The notes under the pieces are model-generated. The model made no database searches and was not told the origin of the DNA. It was given only the letters and a program-made list of their open reading frames with translations. Positions 27,277-47,921 of a stretch of 64,000 nucleotides of DNA are shown here, in pieces; position 1 is the first letter of the stretch; each line of letters begins with the position of its first letter. This DNA is from Simiduia sp. 21SJ11W-1 (GTDB lineage: Bacteria; Pseudomonadota; Gammaproteobacteria; Pseudomonadales; Cellvibrionaceae), in contig NZ_CP090959.1 of NCBI RefSeq assembly GCF_024138675.1, forward strand, positions 1,643,501 through 1,707,500, read 5' to 3'. The translations under genes and the position numbers were made by a program.

Positions 27277-28614
27277 ATGCCGTTAGATGTCAATGAGCTG
27301 GCAGAAGCCATCTACGTTTATGAAGGAAATCGCATTATTCGGGAGATGTTATACCCCGAATTTGAGGCGATTCTGGACGGCTATGTTCCCATCCCCGAGT
27401 TTGCAGGCAAGCAAATTCGGGCGGTTTATGTGCGCATTAACAGCCATTTGTTTGTTAAGGCGGCGGTGTTTTTCCTCATTGAGTTTGATACCGAAGGCTT
27501 TCCAGACAGGCGCTGGAACGTGCCGCTGGGCCAGCTGGCAGATTCCGCCACCAATGGCCCGGATTTAGGCGCCGGTGCCATTCGCCTTGCCTGTGCCTCC
27601 CAGTGCCCCATTGAGTGGCACCAGCCGCGCATGTGGGATCCGAGTGTTGCCACGGGCAAGAACAACTTCGCACTGCTGAAGAAATACGTTAAGGCCAATA
27701 AGCTGGGGTTGATTTGGCGCCAGTCTGCCGAGGTGCCGCAGGCAGTGCCAAGTCACGCCGTAGACACCGCGTCTGCGCGCGCGCTCAAGGCCAAATTTGA
27801 AACCGAGGCGCGCACCCATGTGGCCCAGCTGCTGAAAGAGCAGCGTTTTAAAATGAGTGTGCAGCGCAACCAGTTCCAGCAGCAGGTTGATAGCCTCAAG
27901 CAAGAGCATCAAAGCCGCTTGGCGCGCTACCAGGAAGCGTTGGCCGAGCGCGAGAAAGAGTTGGTTGCCTTGCATGGCGCCAACCAGCAGTTAAAAGAAA
28001 AGATGGATGCCCAGATGTCAAAAATGGCGGGTATTCGCGAATATTTTGAACACAAGCTCAAATCGGCACAGGCCGGTGAGCAGGAGAGCGTCCAATCGCT
28101 GCGCGAGCAATACGAGCTTGAGATGCAAATGAAGCTCGAGGCCGCCACCTCCGATTTGCAGGATATGATTCAAATGCGCGATATGGAGCTTCTCTATCGC
28201 AACGAACAAGAGGCGAGCCTCAACGAAGAAATTGCCCGCCTGCGCGCCGAAGTGCAGAGTTTGATGGGCAATTCAGGCGATGAGATTCTCGAGCGCCTGC
28301 AGCAGTACGGCATAAATTTTGTAGCCTACCAACCGGGCGCGGGGCACATCACCATTCCCGTGGCAGAGCTTACCGAATACACAGAAAACCCGCAGGATTA
28401 CGCTGCCAAAAAGTGTGGCCTGACCCCCAGCCAATACCAAAGCTGGCTGGCCCACTACAACAACCCCAGCTGCTGCGCCCTCAAGGCTGATGGCAGTGTT
28501 TGTGGCGCGCACATTGAGCGCGTACACAACCCCAACGATTTTCACCCGGGCGAAAATGACCGCTGCGCTGAACATCGCACGCCTGTTGCCCGGCAATTTG
28601 CGGTGCTTTCCTGA
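27277..28614 (+). CDS. Coiled-coil protein with C-terminal Cys/His cluster, unknown function
   Basis: A 445-residue protein with no signal peptide or membrane segment. The N-terminal about 150 residues form a globular domain (FAGKQIRAVYVRI, FFLIEFDTEGFPDRRWNVPL). Residues about 165-345 are a long Glu/Gln/Lys/Arg-rich coiled coil. The C-terminal about 90 residues contain a Cys/His cluster, NNPSCCALK, DGSVCGAHIERVHNP and NDRCAEHRTP, that could bind zinc. The layout suggests a cytosolic structural or scaffold protein. The next gene (a PLP enzyme) begins 11 bp after its stop, so they may be co-transcribed. No function can be assigned. Confidence 0.75.
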   Translation: MPLDVNELAEAIYVYEGNRIIREMLYPEFEAILDGYVPIPEFAGKQIRAVYVRINSHLFVKAAVFFLIEFDTEGFPDRRWNVPLGQLADSATNGPDLGAGAIRLACASQCPIEWHQPRMWDPSVATGKNNFALLKKYVKANKLGLIWRQSAEVPQAVPSHAVDTASARALKAKFETEARTHVAQLLKEQRFKMSVQRNQFQQQVDSLKQEHQSRLARYQEALAEREKELVALHGANQQLKEKMDAQMSKMAGIREYFEHKLKSAQAGEQESVQSLREQYELEMQMKLEAATSDLQDMIQMRDMELLYRNEQEASLNEEIARLRAEVQSLMGNSGDEILERLQQYGINFVAYQPGAGHITIPVAELTEYTENPQDYAAKKCGLTPSQYQSWLAHYNNPSCCALKADGSVCGAHIERVHNPNDFHPGENDRCAEHRTPVARQFAVLS

Positions 28615-29569: not shown

Positions 29570-30700
29570 ATGGATGCGGCGATGTCTACAGACAGCAAGG
29601 GTTTGGATTTTGGGTGGGTGCGCACGCTGGTGCCGCTCAAGGCCATGGGTGATGCACACCTGCAGGAGCTTTTGCAGCACTGCCCTGAGCAGATGGTGTT
29701 CAAGGGCCAATCGCTATTTGAGGCCGGTAGTTTTGATCGCCAACATATCTACCTATTGCATGGCGATGTGGAGTTTTCCCACCCCAATGGCGTTACGGAA
29801 ATTATCAAGGGCCGCAGCAGCCTGTTCCCTTTGGTGCCCATACAGCCGAGGCCCTGCACCGCCACTGCGCTCACCGATTGCAGTGTATTGCGCGTTAACA
29901 GCGAGCAGCTCGATAAATTGCTTACCTGGAGCCAGGTAGCAGAGTATTTGAAAATTGATACCGCCTATCAGCCAGAGCTGGATGAAGATGTGGATTGGAT
30001 GCTCACCATCTTAAAATCCAACCTGTTTTTCAAGGTGCCGCCCACCAACATTGGCGAAATCTTCAGCCGCTTGAAGCCCCGTGTAGTGGAGCAGGGCGAG
30101 GTAATTTTGCGCCAGGGTGAAGTGGGTGATGGTTGCTACTTTATCAAAGAGGGCACCGCTGAAGTGTTGCGCTCGAAAGATGGTATTCAAAAGCCGCTGC
30201 ACCTTGCCGATATTGGCGCTGGGCGCTGTTTTGGTGAAGACGCGCTGGTGAATGAAACCGTACGCAACGCCACCGTGCGCATGACCAGCGACGGTGTGCT
30301 GATGGTGATGGATAAACAGGATTTCATTCGCCTGCTCAAAGAGCCAAAGGTAAACAGCCTGCCTCTGACGGCGCTGGGTAACGTGCAAGAGCAGGCGGTA
30401 CTTATTGATGTGCGCACTGAAGATGAATACGCCATGGGCCATTTGCCCCAGGCGGTGAATATTCCTGTGAGCCTGTTGCGGTTGAAAACCCGTATGCTCG
30501 ATAAAGCGCAAGAGTATGTGCTTTATTGTGATACCGGCAGGCGCTCAAACGCCGCCACCTATTTATTGCAAAAGCTGGGGTATCACGTGAGCTATCTGGA
30601 TCGCGGGGTAAACCAAGACCCTAACTTGCGCCTGCAATTACTTAAGGCTGGCGATGATTACTTGCTGCGCGGCGGTAAAGCCGAGCGGGTAGACGCATAG
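29570..30700 (+). CDS. Double cNMP-binding domain protein with C-terminal rhodanese domain
   Basis: A 376-residue cytosolic protein. The first cyclic-nucleotide-type beta-roll (about 18-120, LLQHCPEQMVFKGQSLFEAG) is degenerate. The second (about 148-265) is better conserved, with EVILRQGEVGDGCYFIKEGTAEVLR and GRCFGEDALVNETVRNATVRM, close to the phosphate-binding cassette. A rhodanese domain (about 280-365) follows with DVRTEDEYAMGHLPQAVNIP and the active-site loop CDTGRRSNA (Cys320). It may sense a cyclic nucleotide to control sulfur or redox chemistry. It has no DNA-binding domain, unlike CRP. Its 3' end overlaps the convergent DUF1853 gene by 43 bp. Confidence 0.85.
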   Translation: MDAAMSTDSKGLDFGWVRTLVPLKAMGDAHLQELLQHCPEQMVFKGQSLFEAGSFDRQHIYLLHGDVEFSHPNGVTEIIKGRSSLFPLVPIQPRPCTATALTDCSVLRVNSEQLDKLLTWSQVAEYLKIDTAYQPELDEDVDWMLTILKSNLFFKVPPTNIGEIFSRLKPRVVEQGEVILRQGEVGDGCYFIKEGTAEVLRSKDGIQKPLHLADIGAGRCFGEDALVNETVRNATVRMTSDGVLMVMDKQDFIRLLKEPKVNSLPLTALGNVQEQAVLIDVRTEDEYAMGHLPQAVNIPVSLLRLKTRMLDKAQEYVLYCDTGRRSNAATYLLQKLGYHVSYLDRGVNQDPNLRLQLLKAGDDYLLRGGKAERVDA

Positions 30701-35581: not shown

Positions 35582-38242
35582 ATGACCGAGCAGCAAGCGC
35601 CCAATGTTATCTATCTGGCCGACTACCAGCCGCCCACCCACTGGATTGATGAAACGCATCTGGATGTAGATATCAAACCCAACGCCACCCGTGTGACCGC
35701 GCGGTTAAAAATCCGCCCCAATGAGGCGCGCGGTGAGCAGACTCTGGTGTTAGACGGTGAAAATCTAGACACCCGGCGCGTGTGCTGGAATGATCGCGCG
35801 CTCGCCCCGGCAGACTACACCATTGAAGGCAGCCAGTTGATTCTAACGGGCATTTCCGAACCCGGCTGGTTGACCACAGAAGTGGTGATAGACCCTGAAA
35901 ACAACACCGCACTCGAAGGCCTTTACCGCTCGCGCACCATGTATTGCACCCAGTGTGAGGCCGAGGGCTTTCGTAAAATCACCTGGTATTTAGACAGGCC
36001 CGATGTGATGAGCGTGTTCACCACCCGCATCGAGGCCGATAAAACCACCTGCCCGGTACTGCTCTCAAACGGTAATTTAGTTGAGGCAGGAGAGGTGGGC
36101 TCGGGGCGCCATTTTGCCGCTTGGCACGACCCCCATAAAAAGCCCAGTTACCTGTTTGCACTGGTTGCAGGCGAGCTTGCCTGTGTGCGTGATGCATATA
36201 CCACAGCCTCTGGCCGCAAGGTTGCCATTGAAGTTTTTGTGGAGCCGAAAGATCTCGATAAATGCGATCACGCCATTGATTCCTTGAAGCGCGCCATGCG
36301 CTGGGATGAAACCGTGTACGGCCGCGAATACGATTTGGACATCTACATGATTGTGGCGGTAGATGACTTCAATATGGGTGCCATGGAAAACAAGGGGCTC
36401 AATATTTTTAACACCTCTTGTGTATTGGCCAACCCGAAAACCACCACCGATGTGGGTTTTCAGCGCGTAGAGGCGGTGGTGGCGCACGAGTATTTTCACA
36501 ACTGGTCTGGCAACCGCGTAACCTGCCGCGATTGGTTTCAATTAAGTTTAAAAGAGGGGTTTACCGTTTATCGCGATGCGCAATTTTCAGCCGACATGAA
36601 TTCGGCAACCGTTAAGCGCATTGAAGATGTAAACCTATTGCGCACTGCGCAGTTTAAAGAAGATGCCGGCCCCTTGGCGCACCCGGTCAGGCCCCCCTCG
36701 TTTATAGAAATATCAAACTTCTACACGCTTACCGTGTACGAAAAGGGCGCCGAAGTGGTTCGCATGCTCGCAACCCTTCTTGGGCCGGAAGATTTTCGCC
36801 GCGCTACAGATTTGTATTTCGAGCGTCACGACGGCCAGGCAGTGACCTGCGATGATTTTGTGCAGGCCATGGAAGATGTGAGCGGGCGCGACTTCACCCA
36901 GTTCAAGCTGTGGTACTCCCAGGCCGGCACGCCAGAGGTGGCGGTGGCGGCGCACTATGATGAAAACGCACAGCAATATCGCCTGCGTTTTAGCCAAAGT
37001 TGCCCACCCACGCCTGAGGCCGACACCAAGGCGCCGTTTCATATTCCCGTGCGTATTGCCCTGCTGGGGGATGCAGGCCAACTGCCGCTGCAACTCAAAG
37101 GCCACACACCTGACGATTTGCCGGCAGACAACACAGAAATGATGCTGGAGCTGACCGAAGCGGAGCAGGAGTTCACCTTTACCGGGGTGAAAGAAGCGCC
37201 GGTTCCGTCATTGCTGCGGGGCTTTTCTGCGCCAGTGAACCTGCGTTACGAATACACAGAGGCCGAGCTGGTTCGCCTGTTAACCGGCGATACGGATTTG
37301 TTCAACCGCTGGAGCGCCTCACAGGAACTGGCTGTGAGTGCGGTAAAAGGCGCGTTACAAACCTTTGATGCCGAGCATGACTTTGCAGGTGCAATTACCC
37401 CAGGTGATGCCTGGGTGGCAGCGCTGGCGGCAAATCTTGAGCATCCCGAACTGGATCCGGCGGTTATGGCGTATATGTTGCAATTGCCCTCTGTAAGCTA
37501 TCTGCACGACCGGTTGCCACAGGCCGATATTTTGGCACTGCATAAAATACGTGAAGCCTTGGTGGCGGCATTGGGCCGGGCTTTGGCCGTGCCACTTTCG
37601 GCCAAGCTCAAGGCCTACGATATCAGCCAGCCCTATGCGGTAAACGCCGAAGCTGTTGCCCAGAGAAGCCTGAGCAATACCGCGCTGTTAATGCTTGCAC
37701 GCGCCGGTGATGCCGAGGCGTTGGCCCAGGCGGTTAGGCGCTACCAGGGTGCAAACAATATGACGGATCAGCTGGCGGCACTGAAGGCCATAGTGGCGGC
37801 TCACCCAGAGCCCGTGGTGCAGGCACACCTTAATGCCTTCTACGCGCAATGGGCCGATGAGGCGCTGGTGGTGAATCAATGGTTAACGCTGCAAGCGAGC
37901 CGCGACGTGCCGCAGGCGCTGGACGATGTTCAGGCGCTTACTGAACACGCCTGTTTCAGTTGGACCAACCCCAACAAGGTGCGTGCGTTGGTGGCAGGCT
38001 TTGCCAGCCAGAATCCGGGGCAGTTTCATCGCGCTGATGGCCGTGGCTACCATTGGCTTGCCGATGTGATTATTCGCCTGAATCAGGCCAATCCGCAGTT
38101 GGCATCGCGCCTGGTCACGCCACTGGCGCAGTGGCGTAAGTTCGGTGAGCGCGGCGCGTTGATGCGTGAGGCGCTAGCGCGTATTAACGGCCAGCCGTTA
38201 AGTAAAGATGTGTACGAGGTGGTGGCCAAGGCATTGGCCTAA
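35582..38242 (+). CDS. pepN: Aminopeptidase N
   Basis: An 886-residue M1-family zinc aminopeptidase. The exopeptidase motif GAMEN lies at 266-270, and the zinc site HEYFHNWSGNRVTCRDW starts with HExxH at 302-306 and E325 as third ligand (LKEGFTVYRD). The N-terminal beta domain, catalytic domain, beta-sandwich and C-terminal helical domain are all present. The length matches E. coli PepN (870). It removes N-terminal residues from peptides in cytosolic protein turnover. It is the last of the nadK-to-pepN run. Confidence 0.96.
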   Translation: MTEQQAPNVIYLADYQPPTHWIDETHLDVDIKPNATRVTARLKIRPNEARGEQTLVLDGENLDTRRVCWNDRALAPADYTIEGSQLILTGISEPGWLTTEVVIDPENNTALEGLYRSRTMYCTQCEAEGFRKITWYLDRPDVMSVFTTRIEADKTTCPVLLSNGNLVEAGEVGSGRHFAAWHDPHKKPSYLFALVAGELACVRDAYTTASGRKVAIEVFVEPKDLDKCDHAIDSLKRAMRWDETVYGREYDLDIYMIVAVDDFNMGAMENKGLNIFNTSCVLANPKTTTDVGFQRVEAVVAHEYFHNWSGNRVTCRDWFQLSLKEGFTVYRDAQFSADMNSATVKRIEDVNLLRTAQFKEDAGPLAHPVRPPSFIEISNFYTLTVYEKGAEVVRMLATLLGPEDFRRATDLYFERHDGQAVTCDDFVQAMEDVSGRDFTQFKLWYSQAGTPEVAVAAHYDENAQQYRLRFSQSCPPTPEADTKAPFHIPVRIALLGDAGQLPLQLKGHTPDDLPADNTEMMLELTEAEQEFTFTGVKEAPVPSLLRGFSAPVNLRYEYTEAELVRLLTGDTDLFNRWSASQELAVSAVKGALQTFDAEHDFAGAITPGDAWVAALAANLEHPELDPAVMAYMLQLPSVSYLHDRLPQADILALHKIREALVAALGRALAVPLSAKLKAYDISQPYAVNAEAVAQRSLSNTALLMLARAGDAEALAQAVRRYQGANNMTDQLAALKAIVAAHPEPVVQAHLNAFYAQWADEALVVNQWLTLQASRDVPQALDDVQALTEHACFSWTNPNKVRALVAGFASQNPGQFHRADGRGYHWLADVIIRLNQANPQLASRLVTPLAQWRKFGERGALMREALARINGQPLSKDVYEVVAKALA

Positions 38243-38386
38243 ACGGGTGCCAGCCCGAGCCTGCTGTGGTAAATTTGTGGGCTAGGTTTCACACCCGAGG
38301 GCACGGCGGCCACCCCCGTTGCGGGTAACCAGCCTGCTGGCCGTTAGATTTAATGAAAAAGTACCGGTGACAAGAAAGGAGCGAGC

Positions 38387-39103
38387 ATGTCCCCCAAGGT
38401 AATTGTTGCAATTTGCAGCGCAGGATTTTTATTGGCTGCAAGCCAGGTGTGGGCACAAAAGCTCTACAAAATAGTGGATGAAAACGGCAATGTAACCTTT
38501 TCCCAGTTTCCCCCCAAGGAAAAATCTGAAAACACCAAAGTGGAAGACGTGCACGTAAAAAGTTCCGGTGGTAAAACGCCGGTGCGCTATGTGGGCACCA
38601 ATGCCTATTGTGGAGATATTCGCCTGCCCACAAGCTACACAGGTTCAAGCCGCCATTCGGAAGAGTACCGCGCGAAATATATGCAATCCAAACTGGATGA
38701 CTGGCGTGAACGTTTGCGTGATATCGAGCAATCCAGCCAAGAGCGTGCGCGCCGTAAACTCAACCAGGGCTCGGGCGGTGGTATTGCCTACAGTGCCAAG
38801 CAAAATAGCCAATACCAGCAAAGTATGGCGCGCGATACCGAGCGCATGCGTGAATTGCGCTGCGCCATCAATTGGGCGGAAGAGCAAAATAGCAGCACAG
38901 CCGAAGTGATTCGCGAAAGCGGCGAAGAAACCCAGCGGTTACAACAGGTGCATGCCGAGCTTGAGCGCAGGATGATTGATCAGTGTGGCCGCGAGCCGCT
39001 GTTAGACCCAACAGACCCGCGCAATGCAAAAGATCGTCGCCAGTGGCGTGCCTGCTCGAAAAAATTCCGCAACGATATGCGCAAAGTAGAGCGCGAACTC
39101 TAG
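38387..39103 (+). CDS. Exported DUF4124 domain protein
   Basis: A 238-residue exported protein. Residues 1-23 form a signal peptide (SAGFLLAASQVWAQ, cleavage after WAQ or near). The DUF4124 domain (about 24-70) has LYKIVDENGNVTFSQFPP, typical of the family. The rest is a charged helical region rich in Arg/Glu/Ser with several Cys (NAYCGDI, RELRCAINW, IDQCGREP). Function is unknown. AAGGAG precedes ATG 38387. It is closed by a terminator-like hairpin. Confidence 0.85.
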   Translation: MSPKVIVAICSAGFLLAASQVWAQKLYKIVDENGNVTFSQFPPKEKSENTKVEDVHVKSSGGKTPVRYVGTNAYCGDIRLPTSYTGSSRHSEEYRAKYMQSKLDDWRERLRDIEQSSQERARRKLNQGSGGGIAYSAKQNSQYQQSMARDTERMRELRCAINWAEEQNSSTAEVIRESGEETQRLQQVHAELERRMIDQCGREPLLDPTDPRNAKDRRQWRACSKKFRNDMRKVEREL

Positions 39104-39142
39104 GGTGTGTTTTAGCCCGTTTTAGCGAATTTTCTAAAAAAT

Positions 39143-39176
39143 AAGCCAGTGAGCCATTAGGCGCACTGGCTTTATT
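39143..39176. terminator. Bidirectional terminator-like hairpin
   Basis: AAGCCAGTG (39143-39151) pairs with CACTGGCTT (39164-39172), followed by TATTCTGTTT. The left side is also A-rich. It separates the DUF4124 gene from the convergent prepilin gene. Confidence 0.65.
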
Positions 39177-39249
39177 CTGTTTGACTTTGGCCTGTACTTT
39201 TTTGCCGTTACCTGCCTGGCCTGTGCTAACTGCTGGCAAGTAAGAGCCC

Positions 39250-39771
39250 TCAATAGCGGCAGCGGGTGGGCAGGTAGGCCAGTTCAATATCTGTCAGGTT
39301 TTCTCCAGCACCCTGCATGCCCTCAGGTACGGCGCTTAAGCCGCACACCCAAGACACAGGGCTTAAGGGGGAGCCTGCCACATACACGGGGTAGAGGGTT
39401 ACCACCTTGCCCGTTTGCCCCTCGGCAATTTTATTGCCTAATTCCAGATGCAATGCGCCGTCTGCCAGCGTTACGGCCGCTAAATAATTGCCCACAATTT
39501 TATCGGGGTTTGGCATACCCAGTGTTTCATTGTTGGCAGGGAATTCCCCCATGAGTTTGTAGTAGGCCACTACCTGCTGCTGGTAATCCTTAACAAGTTC
39601 CAGGCTTTCATCAATTTGCACACGGGTCATGCGGCCCTTGGTGTTGGGAATGGCAAGCGTCACCAATATGGCAATAATGGCGAGCACTATCATCATTTCA
39701 ACCAGGGTAAAACCTGCTTGAACGGGCAGTAAAGGGTGGCTTTTAGCCTGAGGTACAGTTGGTTTGCGCAT
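39250..39771 (-). CDS. Type IV prepilin-like protein
   Basis: A 173-residue prepilin with an unusually long 20-residue leader ending QAG. PilD would cut G20/F21, giving mature FTLVEMMIVLAIIAILVTLAIP with Glu at +5. The C-terminal domain has one Cys pair (WVCGL and PTRCRY) that could form the D-loop. It may be a major or minor pilin or a pseudopilin. No pilus assembly genes are in the window, so it is an orphan pilin. The start and next gene are separated by an 80-bp gap with a GCATAGC/GCTATGC inverted repeat. Confidence 0.88.
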   Translation of the reverse strand: MRKPTVPQAKSHPLLPVQAGFTLVEMMIVLAIIAILVTLAIPNTKGRMTRVQIDESLELVKDYQQQVVAYYKLMGEFPANNETLGMPNPDKIVGNYLAAVTLADGALHLELGNKIAEGQTGKVVTLYPVYVAGSPLSPVSWVCGLSAVPEGMQGAGENLTDIELAYLPTRCRY

Positions 39772-39852
39772 GGCGCTAGCATAGCCGGTTTGCTGAGCTA
39801 TTTCAGCTATGCCAGCACCCCAATGCGCAATGGCGGTGGTGCTTAGTTGTGC

Positions 39853-40404
39853 TTAAGCAACCAATAAATAGCGATCCATCTTTGCCTGAATAGTGGCCTC
39901 AAGTGACTTGGCATCAAAGCGCGAAAGATCTTTTAATAGTGAGGGCTTAACCCGGTGCAAATGCAAAATGGGGGATGACTTGTTTAGCTCCCGCAAGTCT
40001 TTGTTGGTGATCACCGGTAAAAACGGCTCACCTTTGGGCATGCGCTCGGCCACGGCCTTAAGGCCCTGGGCCAAGGGCGTGAACTGGAACTTGCCGGTAC
40101 CGCGATTGCGTTTGCCGAGCATCAAGCCCGATTTACCCAGCGCCTCACCTGGCACAATGAACAGGCCCGTGCGAATAACGGCATCGGCGCAAATGGCTTG
40201 GTAGGTATCGTGGTGGGCATCCTGATTGGGCAACACCAGCAGTTTGCTGTTGTCTGCGGTCACGGGCCAGATGTTATAGTTTGCGTACACCTGTTCTACA
40301 GAGCCTGAAAATACGCACAAAGACGCCTCAAAGCGCTTTAAAAAGTTAACCGCGCGCTCTTTGTAAACTATGCCCGCCAGATTCCATATGAGTTGCTGCG
40401 ACAT
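39853..40404 (-). CDS. Hypothetical protein, unknown family
   Basis: A 183-residue protein starting at ATG 40404, six bases after GGAGG; the GTG just before it is also possible. No signal peptide or membrane segment. A mixed alpha/beta start (LIWNLAGIVYKERAVNFLKRF) is followed by a mid-region with NQDAHHDTYQAICADAV, a basic Gly-rich GKRNRGTGKFQFTPLAQG stretch and a Lys-rich end. I recognise no catalytic motif. It is divergent from the AraC/HDOD gene with a 138-bp gap that could hold shared promoters. Confidence 0.6.
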   Translation of the reverse strand: MSQQLIWNLAGIVYKERAVNFLKRFEASLCVFSGSVEQVYANYNIWPVTADNSKLLVLPNQDAHHDTYQAICADAVIRTGLFIVPGEALGKSGLMLGKRNRGTGKFQFTPLAQGLKAVAERMPKGEPFLPVITNKDLRELNKSSPILHLHRVKPSLLKDLSRFDAKSLEATIQAKMDRYLLVA

Positions 40405-40542
40405 CACCTGCCTCCGTCTAATAAGCTAGAGTGTATGGCAGTCACGTTTACTTCCCCACGACCTAAGGCGCCGAATAAATGATCAATTCCGCCAACTTTC
40501 ATTGCCATTACCGGGCCGGCTTCGGTTCGCAGAGGTGCAGTT

Positions 40543-42354
40543 TTGGCACTGGCTGAGCAGGCGCTGGCGGCCAAAGTGCTGGTGCCAGGCCTTGATTGTG
40601 CCTCTGGCGGCGCGCCTTGGGTGAAGGCGGGTGTGTTACAGGAATATGTGGGGGCGCAGGGTTGGTTTCGTTACTTCCAGCAGCTGCAGGCCGCACAGCT
40701 GGGTGTGGCGGGCTATTGGTGGTTGGCAAATCCCAATTTGCAGCAGGCGTTAAGTGCCCACGGTGGGGTGATGGCCAGTTGGTTGCCGGGCTTCAGCGTT
40801 GATCTTACCCAGGCCACTTCAGGTTGCCTGAAGTTAAAGCACCCTCAGCCCTGGCTTGTGGTCTATGGCAGTGCGCTGCTTTGGCATTTGGCGCGCCAAG
40901 CCTGGGGCAGCGGGGCCAAACTGACCTCACTGGTGGTGCCCGCCCGCGAAGAGGCAGCTTTGGGGCTGCTGGGAGCCTACAGCGAATCCCTCGCGGTGGC
41001 GGATACCGAGGCGGCTGAGTTGCACTTTTCGCCGGAATTGCTTACCCAACGCTTTGTGACCCACAACGCCAAATTACTCCCCCTGTTTGCCGACAGTTTA
41101 AGCTTTTTGCGCCCAGGTGGTGATGCAGGTTTGGCAAGCCAGATCTACCAGCTTTTAGACGCAATACCGTCGTTGGAGTCGGCCACGCAAGCCTGGGTAG
41201 CATCAGAGCTTGCCATCAGCGAGCGCACCCTAAACCGGCAGCTCTCAGAGCAGGGCTTGAGTTACCGCGAGCTGATCACGGCATACCGCAATAGTCAGGC
41301 GGTAACCCGCCTGTGTGACGGTGAATCCATTGATCGCTTGGCGGCCTATTTGGGCTTTTCAGAGCGGGCGGCATTTGAGCGGGCTTTTAAGGGTTGGCAG
41401 GGGGTAACGCCGGCAAAATTTCAGGCGCAATACCGGCGCTTGTCAAAAGACATAGATGTAGAAGTGCTCATAACGCCCGAGCGCTTACCGAATTTACCGG
41501 CCATTGCCTCGCAGCTACTGGGCATGGTGCAAGACGACGATGCCAGCCTTGAAAAAATTGCCGCATTGGTAGAGCAAGATCCGGTATTAACGGCCAAGCT
41601 AATCAGTATTGCCAGCAGTGCCTATTACGGCATGAAGCGCTCGGCCACCATCAAAGAAGTGGTGGTGCGGGTGTTCGGCGTTGATAAACTGCGATTTCTG
41701 GCGCTGGCTGTTTTGGCCGCAGGCAGTTTTAAGCTTGAGCGTTGCCCGGCATTTTCGCTGGAGCGCTTTTGGTTGATGTCTTTAGGGGTAGCCCAGATTG
41801 CCACTAATGTGTATCGCAAACTGGGCAAATCAAGTGAAGATCAGGCAGATATTTACCTGGCGGGTTTGCTGCACAATATTGGCCGGCTGGTATTGGTGCA
41901 GTGCTTTCCCGCACGCATGCAAGCGCTGCTTGCGCCCTTAACCGGCAATGAGTTGCCCCAGGAGTTGCTGGCCATGGAAAAACTCAAACTCGGTGTAGAT
42001 GCTTGCGAGGCGGGCGCGGTACTACTCGCCAAGTGGCAACTGCCGCGCTCGGTGAGCGTTGTCATGCGCCAACTGGCCGTAGACAAGGTGGCCATGATGC
42101 CTGAGGCCCAGCTATTGCTGGATGCCGAAGAGTTTTTATTGGCGTTGTCGGCAGTGCCTGCCGCTAGCCAAAGTGGGGCGCCCGAAGTTGATGCCGCCGC
42201 AAAAACACGCACTGCTGTAAACGCTTTTGCTTGCACCATTGCCGAGGCCATGGCGGTTGCGCCTGATAAAATCTCCCCGGTGTTGGAAGAGTTTGCCACA
42301 CGGCTGCCCGAGCTTCAGGCAACGGCCAAAGCCATTCATACAGATGCCGCCTAA
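40543..42354 (+). CDS. AraC-type helix-turn-helix fused to an HDOD domain
   Basis: A 603-residue protein from TTG 40543, with AGAGG at 40531-40535 seven bases upstream; the frame has no in-frame ATG before it. Residues about 1-205 resemble the N-terminal domain of OruR/ArgR-type AraC regulators. Residues about 212-299 are an AraC double helix-turn-helix (ELAISERTLNRQLSEQGLSYREL and IDRLAAYLGFSERAAFERAFKGW). Residues about 310-510 are an HDOD domain (LPNLPAIASQLL, EQDPVLTAKLISIASSAYYGM); the HD pair is HN in LLHNIGRL. HDOD modules act in signalling without hydrolysis. The combination is unusual. Confidence 0.82.
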   Translation: MALAEQALAAKVLVPGLDCASGGAPWVKAGVLQEYVGAQGWFRYFQQLQAAQLGVAGYWWLANPNLQQALSAHGGVMASWLPGFSVDLTQATSGCLKLKHPQPWLVVYGSALLWHLARQAWGSGAKLTSLVVPAREEAALGLLGAYSESLAVADTEAAELHFSPELLTQRFVTHNAKLLPLFADSLSFLRPGGDAGLASQIYQLLDAIPSLESATQAWVASELAISERTLNRQLSEQGLSYRELITAYRNSQAVTRLCDGESIDRLAAYLGFSERAAFERAFKGWQGVTPAKFQAQYRRLSKDIDVEVLITPERLPNLPAIASQLLGMVQDDDASLEKIAALVEQDPVLTAKLISIASSAYYGMKRSATIKEVVVRVFGVDKLRFLALAVLAAGSFKLERCPAFSLERFWLMSLGVAQIATNVYRKLGKSSEDQADIYLAGLLHNIGRLVLVQCFPARMQALLAPLTGNELPQELLAMEKLKLGVDACEAGAVLLAKWQLPRSVSVVMRQLAVDKVAMMPEAQLLLDAEEFLLALSAVPAASQSGAPEVDAAAKTRTAVNAFACTIAEAMAVAPDKISPVLEEFATRLPELQATAKAIHTDAA

Positions 42355-42466
42355 TAGCCCGGTAACAAATCTGTGCCGCAGAGGCTGACATCTGCCATTA
42401 CTGCCCGGCGCTCGCTATGAGCGCTACAAGTCATTAACATGCTCTCCCAGTTGCTGGGGGAATGTC

Positions 42467-43225
42467 ATGCCGATTGAACTTTATTATCTGTTATTGCTGG
42501 TAACCGGATTTGTTGCCGGCATCATAAATACCCTTGCCGGTGGCGGCAGTAATTTAACGGTGCCTGCGCTCATGGTGATGGGCATGCCCGCCGATGTGGC
42601 CAATGCCACCAACCGGGTAGGGGTGTTGTTTCAAAGTGTGAGTGCCGTGCGGGGCTTTCATCAACACGGCAAGCTCCCCTGGGACGCCGTTACCCCCATT
42701 GTGATGCCCACGCTCATTGGCGGTGCCTTGGGCGCGTTGGCTGCAGTATTTGCGCCGAACGAGATTCTAAAGCCTTTGCTGTTGGGCACCATGATTGCCA
42801 TGGCGCTGGTTATTTTAATCAGCCCTTCGGTGGTGGCCCCGGGCGCTGATGAAAAACCCAAAACCGTTGCAGAGTCTCCCCTGGGGCTTGTGGGTTTGCT
42901 GTTTGCGGGCTTCTACGGCGGTTTTGTGCAGGCGGGTGTGGGGTTTGTGTTATTGGCGGCCATTACCGGTGCCTTGCGTTTTGATCTGGTGCGCGCCAAT
43001 GCGCTCAAAGTGATTTGCGCACTGGGCTTTACCTTAGTGGCACTCATAATTTTTATTATTGATGATTTGGTAGCCTGGGTGCCGGGCCTGGTGCTGGCCG
43101 TGGGGGCCATATTCGGTGCACAACTTGCGGTGAAATTTGCCATTAAGGTAGAGCAGCGGGTGTTGAAATGGTTTTTACTGGTAATGACTCTGGTGGCGAG
43201 TGCCGCCGCTTTACTCAGCGGCTAG
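42467..43225 (+). CDS. TSUP family permease (TauE/SafE-like)
   Basis: A 252-residue membrane protein with about seven to eight hydrophobic segments. The N-terminal GFVAGIINTLAGGGSNLTVPAL motif and a repeat-like GFYGGFVQAGVGFVLLAAITGAL in the second half are typical of the 4-toluene sulfonate uptake permease superfamily (sulfite exporter TauE/SafE). The likely role is export of sulfite, sulfoacetate or a similar organic anion; substrate cannot be determined. It is a single gene. Confidence 0.88.
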   Translation: MPIELYYLLLLVTGFVAGIINTLAGGGSNLTVPALMVMGMPADVANATNRVGVLFQSVSAVRGFHQHGKLPWDAVTPIVMPTLIGGALGALAAVFAPNEILKPLLLGTMIAMALVILISPSVVAPGADEKPKTVAESPLGLVGLLFAGFYGGFVQAGVGFVLLAAITGALRFDLVRANALKVICALGFTLVALIIFIIDDLVAWVPGLVLAVGAIFGAQLAVKFAIKVEQRVLKWFLLVMTLVASAAALLSG

Positions 43226-43231
43226 TTTCGC

Positions 43232-43310
43232 AAGGTGCCTGAATTAGGAAGTACCTAAATTGAAAGATGCCTGAATTGCAAAGTACATGAATTGAAAAGT
43301 AGCTGAAACA
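43232..43310. repeat. 16-bp degenerate tandem repeat, five units
   Basis: Units start at 43232, 43249, 43265, 43281 and 43297. The common pattern is AAGTACCTGAATTGAA-like (for example AAGTACATGAATTGAA at 43281-43296). The first unit is 17 bp and the last is truncated. It lies between the TSUP permease and the b561 gene, outside any convincing ORF. Possible roles are a protein-binding array or a relic of slippage. Confidence 0.7.
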
Positions 43311-43509
43311 GATGCACAAAAGCCCGCAAAGTAACTGGGCAATCTAAGCACAGCTGCAAACGACTAGCGGGCGTTCTGTTTGGTGAGAGGTAGGTGTGAA
43401 AAGTTGGCTGCCAATGGTAAGTGCGGGGCGCAATAAAGCTCCAAATGAACCAGTGGCTGCCGGTTTGGTGCAGGCCTTGCAAGCGTTGAGGATTGCAAGG
43501 CCAGGCAAT

Positions 43510-44037
43510 TTACAGCATGCGGCTTAATATGCTTTTCTTTTCGCCTTCAAATAAGTGATAGAGCACAGCAGTTAGGTGCAATACTACAACGGCCAGCAGT
43601 ACCCAGGGTGCATATTCGTGCACTTCATGAAAAAAGCCTGCCAGTGCCCGGTTTTCTTCGAACAACAAAGGCACAGATACGCCCCCGAACTTGATAGCAG
43701 AGCCTGCAAAGTTAGCCATTGCCCAGCCGCTTAGGGGCACAATGGCCATTAATAAATACAGCAAGTGCTTGGTAGATTTTGCCAATACTCGCTCTGTTTT
43801 ACTAAACGCTTCCGGCAGCTTGGGCGCGGGTTTCTTAAAGGCCCAGGCGATGCGGGCAATCAACAGCCAGATGAATACAAAGCCCGTGGCTTTGTGCAAT
43901 AGGATTAGATCAACCCGCCCGGGGGCATCGCGATCCAGTCCACTCATGTAATTGCCCACGGCAATCAGGCCAAAAATCATCAGCGCCATCAACCAATGGA
44001 GGCTGCGGCTAACTAAGTGGTAGCGTTCGGTGTTCAT
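43510..44037 (-). CDS. Cytochrome b561
   Basis: A 175-residue membrane protein of the bacterial cytochrome b561 family. Four hydrophobic helices (about 13-33, 47-65, 88-110, 140-163) hold paired histidines, seen in YHLVSRSLHW (H7, H14), LLHKATGF and VVVLHLTAVLYH, for two b hemes. Members move electrons between ubiquinol and periplasmic acceptors or superoxide. It is monocistronic and lies downstream of batD. Confidence 0.9.
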   Translation of the reverse strand: MNTERYHLVSRSLHWLMALMIFGLIAVGNYMSGLDRDAPGRVDLILLHKATGFVFIWLLIARIAWAFKKPAPKLPEAFSKTERVLAKSTKHLLYLLMAIVPLSGWAMANFAGSAIKFGGVSVPLLFEENRALAGFFHEVHEYAPWVLLAVVVLHLTAVLYHLFEGEKKSILSRML

Positions 44038-44056
44038 AGGTTTTCCTTTTACGCAC

Positions 44057-45865
44057 TTAAACCTGTTCCGGGTAGAGGGGTTTTAGTGGCTGATTCTCTT
44101 TTTGCTTATCGGTTGCCGCACTCACCGGATTAGCCGCACGCACCTCGGCAAGCAGGCTGCTAATTTCGCCTGCAAAATGACTGTGCGCGCCGTAGGCCAT
44201 GGCTTCAAGCGCGTTAATTTGCGCAACCAGTGCAGGGTAGTGGCCGAGCCTTTTAGCCAGGGGCGCTTTGCCCAGTGGTTCAGACCAACGATTTAGCCAG
44301 CGAAGAATAGCAGTTGCATTGGCGGGCGTCATGGGTTGGCTGCACAGGCGCTCAAGCTCGGTCACAGGCGCGCCGGGTGCCGGCGCGCTGGTTGTATCAT
44401 CCGGTGCTGCAAGGCCCTCTTTTGGCGCTCGCGCCCATAGCCAAATAAGCCCACACAGGGTTGCAATATTGGTGGCTGCCAGTGCAAGCGTTAGCCAAAA
44501 CCATGGGTTTGGTGGCTGTTGTGTTGCAGCATTGGGTGCGGCTAAGGGCGGGTTCGGCTGTGTTTCGTCATCAGCTTCGGTGGGGCTATCAGAGGCAGCT
44601 TGTGGCTCTCTGTGAGGTTGGGCCTGGCCATCATGGGGTGCGCTGTTTGCCAGTGCCGGGTTGTTGGCCACTTCAACGGTGCGCGCGGGCAAGCGGGCGG
44701 TTTCCATTTGTTGGGTGTTCAGGTTCCACCAGCTGAGTGTCACTTCAGGCAGGGTAAACCTGCCGGCCTGCGTGGGCACAATGGCAAGGCTTTCTGCAAC
44801 TGTGGCCGTCAAGCCATCGCTGCTTGTTTGGTCGTTGCGCTCTGTGGGTTCTTGGTAATATTTCAGCCCCCGGGGTGCTTTGAGTGCAAGGCTGGGTATC
44901 TGGTTTTCCGTAAGCCCTTGGGCCGAAATAATAATATGGCGGTTAATGGGTTCGCCCACAGTCCATTGAGTGTTGCCCTCGCTCCAGGATTCAGACAGCG
45001 ACAGCTGTTGGGCAGGCAACCAGTGTTCGCCTTGGTAATTGGCCGGTTGTGGCTGCACCTCAAGGGTGAGGGCTTTCGAGCGCAGGCGTTTGGTTGCGCC
45101 TGTGCTGTATTGAAACGGGTTGTTCCAGCTTCTGTCGCTGCCTGTTGCTACGGTAAACACTTGTTGCGGTATTTCCAAACGCCCGCTTTTTTGTGGGAAG
45201 AGCGCGTAGCGCCATTCTTTTATGGTGTAGAGTTTTTCGCCCACGCGCTTTTGATATTGGGTGTCGTCAAGGTTTACCAGCAGGGCATCGGGAAGTGAAA
45301 GATTGGATGCATCCTGAATGCGCAGGGGGATGGCGGTGGCGAGTTTCAAGCTGACAATCACCTGCTCTTGCACATAGGGTGTTGCGTTATCAACCGATAA
45401 ATCCAGATACACATCAGCGCGCGTATCGCCAGCCGCCGGTGCCGCGGACACATCAATTAAAATGGCGTTGCTGTAATTGCCCATGTATTCAAATGAGGGG
45501 ATAACCAGTTGGCCTTGGGCCTTGGGTGCAAGGGTGAGTTGCCACTCGGTAAAGGCTTCAATTTGGCCGTTGATATTGCGGTACTGGCTACTTTGGGTTT
45601 GCCCTAAAATATCAAACTGTTTTTCCAGTTGGCTGAAATCCGGTGCTGTATTGCTTTGCGGTGATACGCGCACTTGCAGCGCGAGCGTTTCATCCAGGCT
45701 CAGTTGCGCGCGATCTACCCGCGCGCTGATGTCTTGGGCTTGCGCCCAGGGGCTAAGGGCAAGTTGCACCAGTATCAGCACAGTTAACAGCCACAGTGTA
45801 CGGGCTGTATTTCCTGCCGGGTAGCCATTAAAAACAGGCAGGGTTTTACCAACGTTCATGGGCAT
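44057..45865 (-). CDS. batD: BatD-like protein
   Basis: About 602 residues from ATG 45865 (ATGs at 45868 and 45859 are also plausible; GGAGA is just upstream). The signal peptide (about 15-40, TLWLLTVLILVQLALSPWAQA) precedes a large periplasmic BatD region with repeated beta-sandwich stretches. A Pro/Gln/Ala-rich linker (about 410-460) and one membrane helix (FWLTLALAATNIATLCGLIWLW) lead to a short cytosolic tail. BatD is part of the Bat complex with MoxR, thought to aid envelope protein folding or stress tolerance. Its start overlaps batB/C by 20 bp. Confidence 0.85.
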   Translation of the reverse strand: MPMNVGKTLPVFNGYPAGNTARTLWLLTVLILVQLALSPWAQAQDISARVDRAQLSLDETLALQVRVSPQSNTAPDFSQLEKQFDILGQTQSSQYRNINGQIEAFTEWQLTLAPKAQGQLVIPSFEYMGNYSNAILIDVSAAPAAGDTRADVYLDLSVDNATPYVQEQVIVSLKLATAIPLRIQDASNLSLPDALLVNLDDTQYQKRVGEKLYTIKEWRYALFPQKSGRLEIPQQVFTVATGSDRSWNNPFQYSTGATKRLRSKALTLEVQPQPANYQGEHWLPAQQLSLSESWSEGNTQWTVGEPINRHIIISAQGLTENQIPSLALKAPRGLKYYQEPTERNDQTSSDGLTATVAESLAIVPTQAGRFTLPEVTLSWWNLNTQQMETARLPARTVEVANNPALANSAPHDGQAQPHREPQAASDSPTEADDETQPNPPLAAPNAATQQPPNPWFWLTLALAATNIATLCGLIWLWARAPKEGLAAPDDTTSAPAPGAPVTELERLCSQPMTPANATAILRWLNRWSEPLGKAPLAKRLGHYPALVAQINALEAMAYGAHSHFAGEISSLLAEVRAANPVSAATDKQKENQPLKPLYPEQV

Positions 45866-47921
45866 CATTCTCCGGTGCTTGCCATTCGCCGCGTTTAATG
45901 GCTCGGCGGCGCTCTCTGTATTCGTATTCAAATTTTCGGCGCAACAGGCCTGAGGGATCATCTTCTACCTGACGTAGCCATTGCTCCATGGCCTGGCGCT
46001 CTTCCGGACTCAGGTGATCAAGTGCATCCGGGCGCCCGTATGTTTCGCCCTGTGGCTCGCCTGCTTGCCCGGTTTCAGGCGGGTTATTGCTATAGGGCGA
46101 TTCTGCCAGTGAATCTTCAGGTGCCCCGGGCTGTGCGCCCTGTTCTTGCGATTGGGCCTCGCTGTTTGGTGGCTCGCGATCTTCCGGGTTGTTGCCCGGA
46201 TTTTCGTCAGCTGTGTGGTCGGGGTTATCGGCCGCGTTAGCCTGGGGTGACTCAGTGGGATTTTCCTGCTCACCTTTTTGATTGTGAGGGGTTTGGTCTG
46301 CTTGCTCGTTTTGTGAATCTGGGTTTTGTGAGCCGTTGTTCTGTGAACTGTTGTTTTGTGAACCAGAGTCATCCGGGCTCTGCTCGCCGTCGGTGTTTTC
46401 ACCCTGTGGATTTTCCTGGTTTTGGCCCTCGTTGTTCTCGCCTGGCTGGCTCTCGTTTTCCGGGTTGTCAGCTGGGGGATTTTGATTCTGTTGCTCTTTA
46501 ATAGATTCCAATAATTCCAGGTTTGCCTTGGCATCGTTCATGTCGGGTGCAAGTTCAAGGGCCTGCTGGTAGCTTTCCATCGCTTTATCGATATCGCCTG
46601 CCTGAGCGTGGGCATTGCCGAGGTTGTACCAGTCGTCGGCGGTTGCTGTGTCTTGTTGGGTGAGGTTGCTCAGAGTTTCAATGGCTTGTGGGTAGTTTTT
46701 TGCCCGGTATTGCGCGGCCGCTCGCCAGCGGGGGTCGTTAAACTCGTGGGCGGCAACTTCCGGCGCATCACTTTCCAGCGCTTTCTGGCCCCGTTGATCG
46801 CGGTTTAGCCAAAGCTTGTCCCAAAAGTTTAAGGGGCTGGCCTCGGCTGCTTGCGATTGTTCTGTGGTGCCACTGGCCGGGCTATTCGCCTGGGCAGCCT
46901 CTGGCAACATGAGCGTGGTGCCAAGAGCGATGGGCAAGAGAAAAAACAAATTTTTTCTAAAGCCGTAGGCGGCAAGTGGCAGCAATAGCCACGCAAGCCA
47001 AATGCCTTCATCGCGCCAGCTGTCGAAATCACGCTCTACCTCGCGCCCACCACGCGTGTTGCTGAGCGGCTTGGCGAGTGCGCGAATATCATCATCGGTA
47101 AAGGTGAGGTCTTGGTAGCTCCCGCCGGTGCTGGCAGCCAGCTGGCGTAAGAGCGCGCGATCGTTTTTTACCATCACAATATTGCCGGCGCGGTCTTTGG
47201 CGAAACCGCGCTCACCCAGGGGAATAGGAGCACCTGTTTCATCGCCCAATCCAATAATGTGCAGTTGGTAGGGGGTTGGTTTTAACGTATCAACCAAGGT
47301 AGGCAGAGCCTCCGGTGCTACGCCGTCGGTAATTAACACGATGCGGGCACGGGCAAGGTGTGCCTGGTTCAGTTGTTCAACGGCAAGGGTCACTGCCTGC
47401 TCTAGGTTACTGCCGGTGAGCGGCATGATGTCGGGCGTGAGTGCGGGAATCAGATTTTTCAGCGTGCGCGCATCGTCTGTTAGTGGGGCAACGAGGTGTG
47501 CATTGCCGGCGTAGGCAATGAGCGCACGCTGGCCTTCGCGCTGCAAATTGAGCGCATCTGTGAGTTTTTGTTGGGCGCGTTTAATCCGGCTGGGTTTTAC
47601 ATCTTCTGCCAGCATTGATGGTGATAGATCCAGCAAAAATACCGTGGCATCGTCTGTTTTCAAGACCGGTGTGGGCAATTTATTCCAGGCGGGCCCGGCC
47701 AGCGCAACGCATGCAATAACCCAACTGCCTGCCAATAAAGGCCACACCAGTTGCCGCTTACCTTTATGGGCAATATTTAATTGCTTGAGCAGGGCCGGGG
47801 CTATGTGGGTTTGCCAGACGGCCACGCTCGCCGTGCGTTTGTTTAGCCAGTAGGCTAGTAACGGCAGTAGCGGTAATAAAAGCAGCCATACAGGCCTTAA
47901 AAAATGAAATTGATCAAACAT
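45846..47921 (-). CDS. BatB/BatC fusion: VWA domain and TPR protein
   Basis: A 691-residue protein. The N-terminus has two membrane helices (about 10-25 and 60-78); the VWA domain (about 90-290) has the MIDAS motif DLSPSM (98-103) and LITDGVAPE. A third membrane region (about 310-345) precedes a TPR (about 430-476, DDWYNLGNAHAQAGDIDKAM). Residues about 479-630 are a low-complexity Asn/Gln/Pro/Glu/Ser tract with few hydrophobic residues, and the end is basic. BatB and BatC are separate proteins in many bacteria; here they are fused. It overlaps batA by 8 bp. Confidence 0.88.
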   Translation of the reverse strand: MFDQFHFLRPVWLLLLPLLPLLAYWLNKRTASVAVWQTHIAPALLKQLNIAHKGKRQLVWPLLAGSWVIACVALAGPAWNKLPTPVLKTDDATVFLLDLSPSMLAEDVKPSRIKRAQQKLTDALNLQREGQRALIAYAGNAHLVAPLTDDARTLKNLIPALTPDIMPLTGSNLEQAVTLAVEQLNQAHLARARIVLITDGVAPEALPTLVDTLKPTPYQLHIIGLGDETGAPIPLGERGFAKDRAGNIVMVKNDRALLRQLAASTGGSYQDLTFTDDDIRALAKPLSNTRGGREVERDFDSWRDEGIWLAWLLLPLAAYGFRKNLFFLLPIALGTTLMLPEAAQANSPASGTTEQSQAAEASPLNFWDKLWLNRDQRGQKALESDAPEVAAHEFNDPRWRAAAQYRAKNYPQAIETLSNLTQQDTATADDWYNLGNAHAQAGDIDKAMESYQQALELAPDMNDAKANLELLESIKEQQNQNPPADNPENESQPGENNEGQNQENPQGENTDGEQSPDDSGSQNNSSQNNGSQNPDSQNEQADQTPHNQKGEQENPTESPQANAADNPDHTADENPGNNPEDREPPNSEAQSQEQGAQPGAPEDSLAESPYSNNPPETGQAGEPQGETYGRPDALDHLSPEERQAMEQWLRQVEDDPSGLLRRKFEYEYRERRRAIKRGEWQAPENDAHERW

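Follow-up and report, generated by a model that had tools for sequence, protein, structure and literature searches.

The HDOD protein SadB has been described in more than one way. In Pseudomonas aeruginosa, it binds AmrZ, which leads to the proteolysis of AmrZ by Lon, and the same account has it not binding c-di-GMP (PMC13104612, reporting Ben-David et al., 2025, in the part of the text available). In Pseudomonas fluorescens, SadB binds c-di-GMP, according to the available part of PMC6543031. Another HDOD protein, GsmR, affects the transcription of flagellar genes, and the available sections of two articles describe it as being without phosphatase or phosphodiesterase activity (PMC4114195, PMC6543031). 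The function of HDOD domains is unsettled: the published views of SadB span from a c-di-GMP receptor to an adaptor that sends a transcription factor to proteolysis.

We analyzed a window of 64,000 nucleotides (the whole stretch of DNA studied here) from Simiduia sp. 21SJ11W-1, in which a single gene encodes both an AraC-type DNA-binding domain and an HDOD domain. The fusion is a case of an HDOD domain naturally tied to a DNA-binding domain beside a candidate operator, in culturable marine bacteria, and its DNA-binding output could serve as a direct read-out of what the HDOD domain senses. The candidate cis element, conserved in the genus, is the main new result of this analysis.

The fusion gene and its domains

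The fusion gene occupies positions 40543..42354 of the forward strand and encodes 603 amino acids in a single open frame that begins with TTG. A Shine-Dalgarno-like AGAGGTG (40531..40537, forward strand) was read off the sequence 5 nt 5' of this codon, and the TTG is aligned with the ATG of an orthologue 72% identical in sequence. The fusion was found full length and at the same place in all four Simiduia genomes, with the other three proteins showing 72, 57, and 51% identity to the window protein; the window's own genome (G000) is a single contig of 3.96 Mb.

From the N to the C terminus, the protein consists of a weak Arabinose_bd sensor region, an AraC double helix-turn-helix (HTH), a short linker, and an HDOD domain. 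The HTH_18 match (residues 220-295; 41200..41427, forward strand) scored 54.8 bits in Pfam (cut-off 33.6, E 1.2e-14) and was aligned with AraC proteins encoded elsewhere in the same genome. The HDOD match (PF08668, residues 315-509; 41485..42069, forward strand) scored 146.7 bits (cut-off 22.9, E 7.8e-43), and all three orthologues match this family too. The preliminary description had placed AraC and HDOD parts in one gene at 40543-42354; the coordinates were exact, the frame is unbroken, and both Pfam domains are above their cut-offs. It had also called the N-terminal half a normal AraC regulator, which is borne out for the double HTH and only partly for the sensor: the Arabinose_bd (PF12625) match at residues 46-170 (40678..41052, forward strand) is weak, with 21.3 bits against a cut-off of 27.6. 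Two orthologues scored 23.3 and 21.7 bits with this family, and the third was not listed at E 0.01. Assignment of the fusion to the AraC/XylS family comes from HTH_18, the second Pfam model, HTH_AraC, being just under its cut-off (26.2 vs. 26.6 bits). The best NCBIfam model was the AraC-type QhpR (NF049968), at 87.5 bits, far from the 250 bits that would make the fusion an equivalog. No YbaK-type family was listed by Pfam at E up to 1, so the fusion does not have the architecture of SadB. Each of the solved structures among the matches listed fits one half, HDOD or AraC, and none spans both. The predicted fold of the fusion was unusable (AlphaFold with two sequences, mean pLDDT 38.8).

At the position of the HD metal-binding pair, the alignment of the four orthologues shows HN, HN, HN, and HA; in the window protein, the residues are H444-N445 (41872..41877, forward strand). 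The preliminary description had singled out this replacement. It is present, but it is nothing special, as HN is usual in the nearest stand-alone HDOD relatives: among the best 20 of the class sample, 15 had HN and none had HD. In the HDOD matches from the order set, a simple pattern found the motif in 23 of 29 proteins, with HN in 11 and HD in four. Because the HD pair is lost, metal-dependent hydrolysis of the HD type is not expected of the HDOD half, which should be non-catalytic with respect to that reaction. No AraC gene was found in the 5.5-10 kb around each of the 20 HDOD relatives, and an origin of the fusion from an adjacent AraC-HDOD gene pair was rejected on this account.

The candidate operator and the divergent genes

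In all four Simiduia genomes, the pilin gene, small gene, fusion, TauE, and cytochrome b561 follow one another in this order and keep their relative strands (families were scanned with Pfam in the window and recognized by sequence likeness in the other three genomes). The small gene (39853..40404, reverse strand; 183 aa from its ATG) is divergent from the fusion, is syntenic in the four genomes, and is the putative target of regulation. It belongs to no Pfam family, and no convincing solved relative of its product was found (best E 0.046). Just downstream on the same strand lies a type IV pilin-like gene with N_methyl and Pilin matches in Pfam (39250..39771), a possible co-target, and this gene adjoins a DUF4124 gene (38387-39103). 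The seven flanking genes at 35582-45961 encode an M1 aminopeptidase, the DUF4124 protein, the pilin, the small protein without a family, TauE, cytochrome b561, and BatD.

A 36-bp element (40458..40493, forward strand) sits between the small gene and the fusion, in a region that is otherwise poorly conserved. In the window it reads ACGAC-N6-CGCC-N6-ATGAT-N6-CGCC, and the consensus over the four Simiduia genomes is AYGAY-N6-SGCC-N6-ATGAT-N6-SGCC, that is, two half-sites AYGAY-N6-SGCC at a lag of 21 bp. AraC proteins are generally known to read two direct-repeat half-sites about two helical turns apart. The 36-bp element has the layout of an AraC operator, which makes it a candidate site, and it lies within the interval 40405-40542 that had been proposed beforehand for DNA binding by the fusion.

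The best block of 26 columns contained 14 invariant columns, vs. at most eight in 300 dinucleotide shuffles; when the close genome G002 was left out, there were again 14, vs. at most 12 in the shuffles. The column repeat at lag 21 was reached by none of 2000 column shuffles at any lag from 5 to 25, for a stretch that was picked after the element had been seen. The kinship of the genomes is not modelled in either shuffle test. A first version of the motif, 26 bp long, matched exactly at one or two sites in each genome; when up to one mismatch was allowed, it had 85 matches vs. 12 in the reversed control. As this version was not specific, it was replaced by the complete 36-bp form. Each of the four genomes has a single exact copy of the 36-bp pattern, in every case at the fusion promoter. 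Since the pattern was derived from these same four sites, the only new information is that further exact copies are lacking. Allowing up to two mismatches gave 130 matches in the four genomes vs. 110 in the reversed control, so that no wider regulon or second conserved target is visible. No match to a sigma-70 promoter was found in 40380-40600.

The distance from the element to the start of the small gene is 49-53 nt in the four genomes, and that to the start of the fusion is 36-67 nt (for G001 and G003, measured to the first listed start codon). This spacing, nearly constant on one side and variable on the other, suggests that the main target is the small gene, possibly with the pilin gene, and that the fusion also regulates itself. 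The better fixed position relative to the small gene would also suit a different account, which we regard as unlikely, namely that the element belongs to another regulator or to the small gene's own promoter and that the fusion acts elsewhere. However, two small-gene orthologues without an adjoining fusion (L051 and L052) carry no half-site in the 461 and 270 nt searched upstream of them, and the 21-bp direct repeat, an arrangement typical of AraC operators, recurs at another AraC gene. That gene is divergent from a GMC oxidoreductase gene (families scanned in G000 only), and in each of the four Simiduia genomes the stretch between the two contains TTGAY-N6-SGCC twice, at a spacing of 21 bp (L126 3547-3582, L127 3704-3739, L128 4054-4089, and L129 4231-4266). 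The HTH of this second AraC protein shares 33% identity with the HTH of the fusion; similar site letters are therefore no proof of shared recognition, and the likeness is one of layout. Among seven more AraC loci in the window's genome, none had an exact site, and six had none even at one mismatch. In the seventh, a one-mismatch element of like layout (L132 1078-1113) precedes the AraC gene by about 80 bp.

The neighborhood was also compared with that of relatives. The small gene family is present in 29 of the 58 genomes searched, the window's own included. G029, of the same family of bacteria, has the M1 aminopeptidase gene, the small gene, and TauE together, with neither fusion nor pilin, and its pilin and DUF4124 pair is placed elsewhere in the genome. 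Because the flanking genes are joined there without the fusion, the fusion gene appears to have been either gained by the Simiduia lineage or lost from G029.

Further observations concern the wider surroundings of these families. Four pilin relatives in other genera (48-50% identity) were examined, and three of them lie beside a DUF4124 gene, as in the window. Ten of the 20 small-gene-family loci that were fetched lie within about 4 kb of an HDOD gene, and the locus of the paralogue in the window's genome (L060) also has a cNMP-binding gene nearby. The stand-alone HDOD gene near the small-gene paralogue (the HDOD gene is L007) was considered as the source of the HDOD part of the fusion and set aside, as it proved to be among the weakest matches to the fusion profile in its own genome. 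In G012, again of the same family of bacteria, a stand-alone HDOD gene is divergent from a gene that resembles, by eye, a TauE-family transporter gene (L151 1382-2197 and 2560-3327); this pairing recalls the order of fusion and TauE, possibly by chance. Elsewhere in the window, positions 29570-30700 (forward strand) encode two cNMP-binding stretches and a rhodanese domain beside a gene for a PLP-dependent enzyme, and a 445-aa neighbor at 27277-28614 had no Pfam match at E 1e-5.

The proposed mechanism and the role of the HDOD half

The account that we think probable, with due reserve, is that the fusion is a one-component regulator of the AraC/XylS type with a fixed, non-catalytic HDOD domain, which would bind 40458-40493 and control itself and the small gene, its activity being tuned by the HDOD half. 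As a first step, the AraC half would bind the direct-repeat element between the divergent genes, which is the step that the sequence supports best. As a second, the fusion would regulate both itself and the divergent small gene, the latter probably along with the pilin gene that comes next. In the third, the HDOD half would act as a binding module and not as a hydrolase, and its partner, more likely a protein than a nucleotide, would alter the activity, dimerization, or stability of the attached regulator. By analogy, the HDOD half would exert in cis the kind of effect that SadB has on a transcription factor in trans. We lean toward protein binding as its role; this rests on the analogy with SadB, whose architecture differs.

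c-di-GMP-binding AraC regulators exist. It is conceivable, though rather improbable, that the HDOD half is a receptor for c-di-GMP or another nucleotide, which would make the fusion a one-component c-di-GMP-responsive transcription factor. In the available text of PMC6543031, SadB of P. fluorescens F113 bound c-di-GMP in SPR assays, and VfmE is named a c-di-GMP effector in the title of PMC9045272. SadB of P. aeruginosa, however, is reported not to bind c-di-GMP in the portion of PMC13104612 available, and none of the seven flanking genes scanned at 35582-45961 encodes a c-di-GMP or chemotaxis component. The c-di-GMP or chemotaxis-like control that the preliminary description had raised as a possibility thus finds no support in these neighbors.

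A role of the HDOD half as a binding module also has to be weighed against the possibility that this half is a passive passenger or a dimerization aid without a signal of its own. The loss of the HD residues and the poorly conserved C-terminal tail (32-49% identity of the three orthologues to the window protein) would agree with a passenger, but the HDOD domain is 67-85% identical in the same comparison and the sensor 36-63%. A domain more conserved than the sensor is not what is expected of a passenger, and we consider this explanation doubtful. The sensor and the C-terminal tail are the least conserved parts of the fusion. Identity was 59-84% over residues 196-296, which contain the HTH, and rose to 88-93% to each of the three orthologues over the junction (residues 270-312, the end of the HTH and the linker; 41350..41478, forward strand). 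No other stretch in the comparison is as well conserved as the junction, which has a near-unbroken invariant run at residues 270-301. Across the four genomes, the HTH, the junction, and the HDOD domain showed little amino-acid change while silent sites were near saturation, so that dN/dS could be computed for some pairs only. By these comparisons, the fusion protein is under constraint.

A continuous frame and a nearly invariant junction common to four genomes, whose other members are 51-72% identical to the window protein, leave next to no room for a frameshift, an assembly join, or a read-through of two genes, the first two of which had been named beforehand as possible refutations and are ruled out. 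The single TGA flagged in the G003 orthologue (L013 1501-3225) is its own stop codon, which ends an open frame of 574 codons; as the match ends with this frame, stop codon included, the G003 gene is not interrupted.

Distribution of the fusion and comparison with known systems

We searched 145 genomes of the order (four of Simiduia, 86 from the rest of the family, and 55 from the rest of the order), with at most nine candidates scored per genome. Among the matches listed, the fusion was full length in the four Simiduia genomes (E 4.3e-168 or better) and in none of the 141 outside the genus, 135 of which had matches at E no better than 5.3e-28 and six no match. In searches of the class (369 genomes, E 1e-26) and of the phylum (398 genomes, E 1e-32), in which the best three candidates per genome were scored, only G000 had a match that spanned both halves; the genome sets of order, class, and phylum overlap. 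None of the 355 plasmid records with a match covered 80% of the fusion protein at one place.

As a control of sensitivity, AraC and HDOD proteins from the window's genome were joined end to end and scanned with the profile built from the four fusions. With the AraC protein first, eight of 16 constructs gave a match spanning both parts (about 92-102 bits) and the other eight gave separate, weaker matches; with the HDOD protein first, all 16 gave separate, weaker matches. The class threshold of E 1e-26 (about 94 bits) would detect most controls of the spanning kind and not the rest, and that of E 1e-32 would miss every joined control, so that the phylum search excludes close relatives only. As the thresholds could miss remote fusions, absence elsewhere means here that no close relative and no spanning match were seen.

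Four listed matches from other genera ran from HTH positions into HDOD, and none was an AraC fusion on reading. In L149 and L150 (427 aa), the HDOD domain stands behind an N-terminal part that resembles, by eye, a cNMP-binding domain; L151 is an HDOD protein of 271 aa; and in L014, HDOD is followed by a part like L017, which Pfam assigns as HDOD-GAF-histidine kinase. In the apparently spanning plasmid match (H1), the alignment passes from an AraC gene into an epimerase gene in antisense. The available text of the open-licence literature on HDOD domains, including PMC6756136 and PMC4395418, describes no AraC-HDOD protein. In what could be sampled, the full-length AraC-HDOD fusion thus appears restricted to Simiduia; the fusion might have turned out to be common or already characterized, and it was not seen outside the genus in the genomes sampled.

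The AraC/XylS regulators with an Arabinose_bd domain, among which QhpR scored best, resemble the fusion in their double HTH and in the presence of a divergent gene, and the direct repeat beside the fusion, as a candidate operator, would be a further likeness. The fusion differs from them in its C-terminal HDOD domain, in an Arabinose_bd match below the cut-off, and in its score with the QhpR model (87.5 bits vs. 250). The stand-alone HDOD proteins of other Gammaproteobacteria (276-327 aa) supply the best 20 relatives of the HDOD half and mostly have HN as well; unlike the fusion, they have no AraC part.

SadB of Pseudomonas is like the fusion in being a non-catalytic HDOD protein tied to the control of a transcription factor (PMC6543031 and PMC13104612, in the parts available). 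SadB consists of YbaK-like and HDOD domains and acts on a separate protein, AmrZ, whereas in the fusion, HDOD is joined to the regulator itself. It may even be, although we think it quite improbable, that the HDOD half recruits a protease or other partner in cis and that a surface or second-messenger signal would thereby set the survival of the regulator on the promoter of the small gene and the pilin gene. If true, such a cis-adaptor would be a new way of controlling an AraC protein. GsmR of Xanthomonas is likewise an HDOD protein with a link to transcription and is described as a response regulator in the available part of PMC4114195. The fusion differs from it in having a DNA-binding domain built in. 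To our knowledge, GsmR has no such domain.
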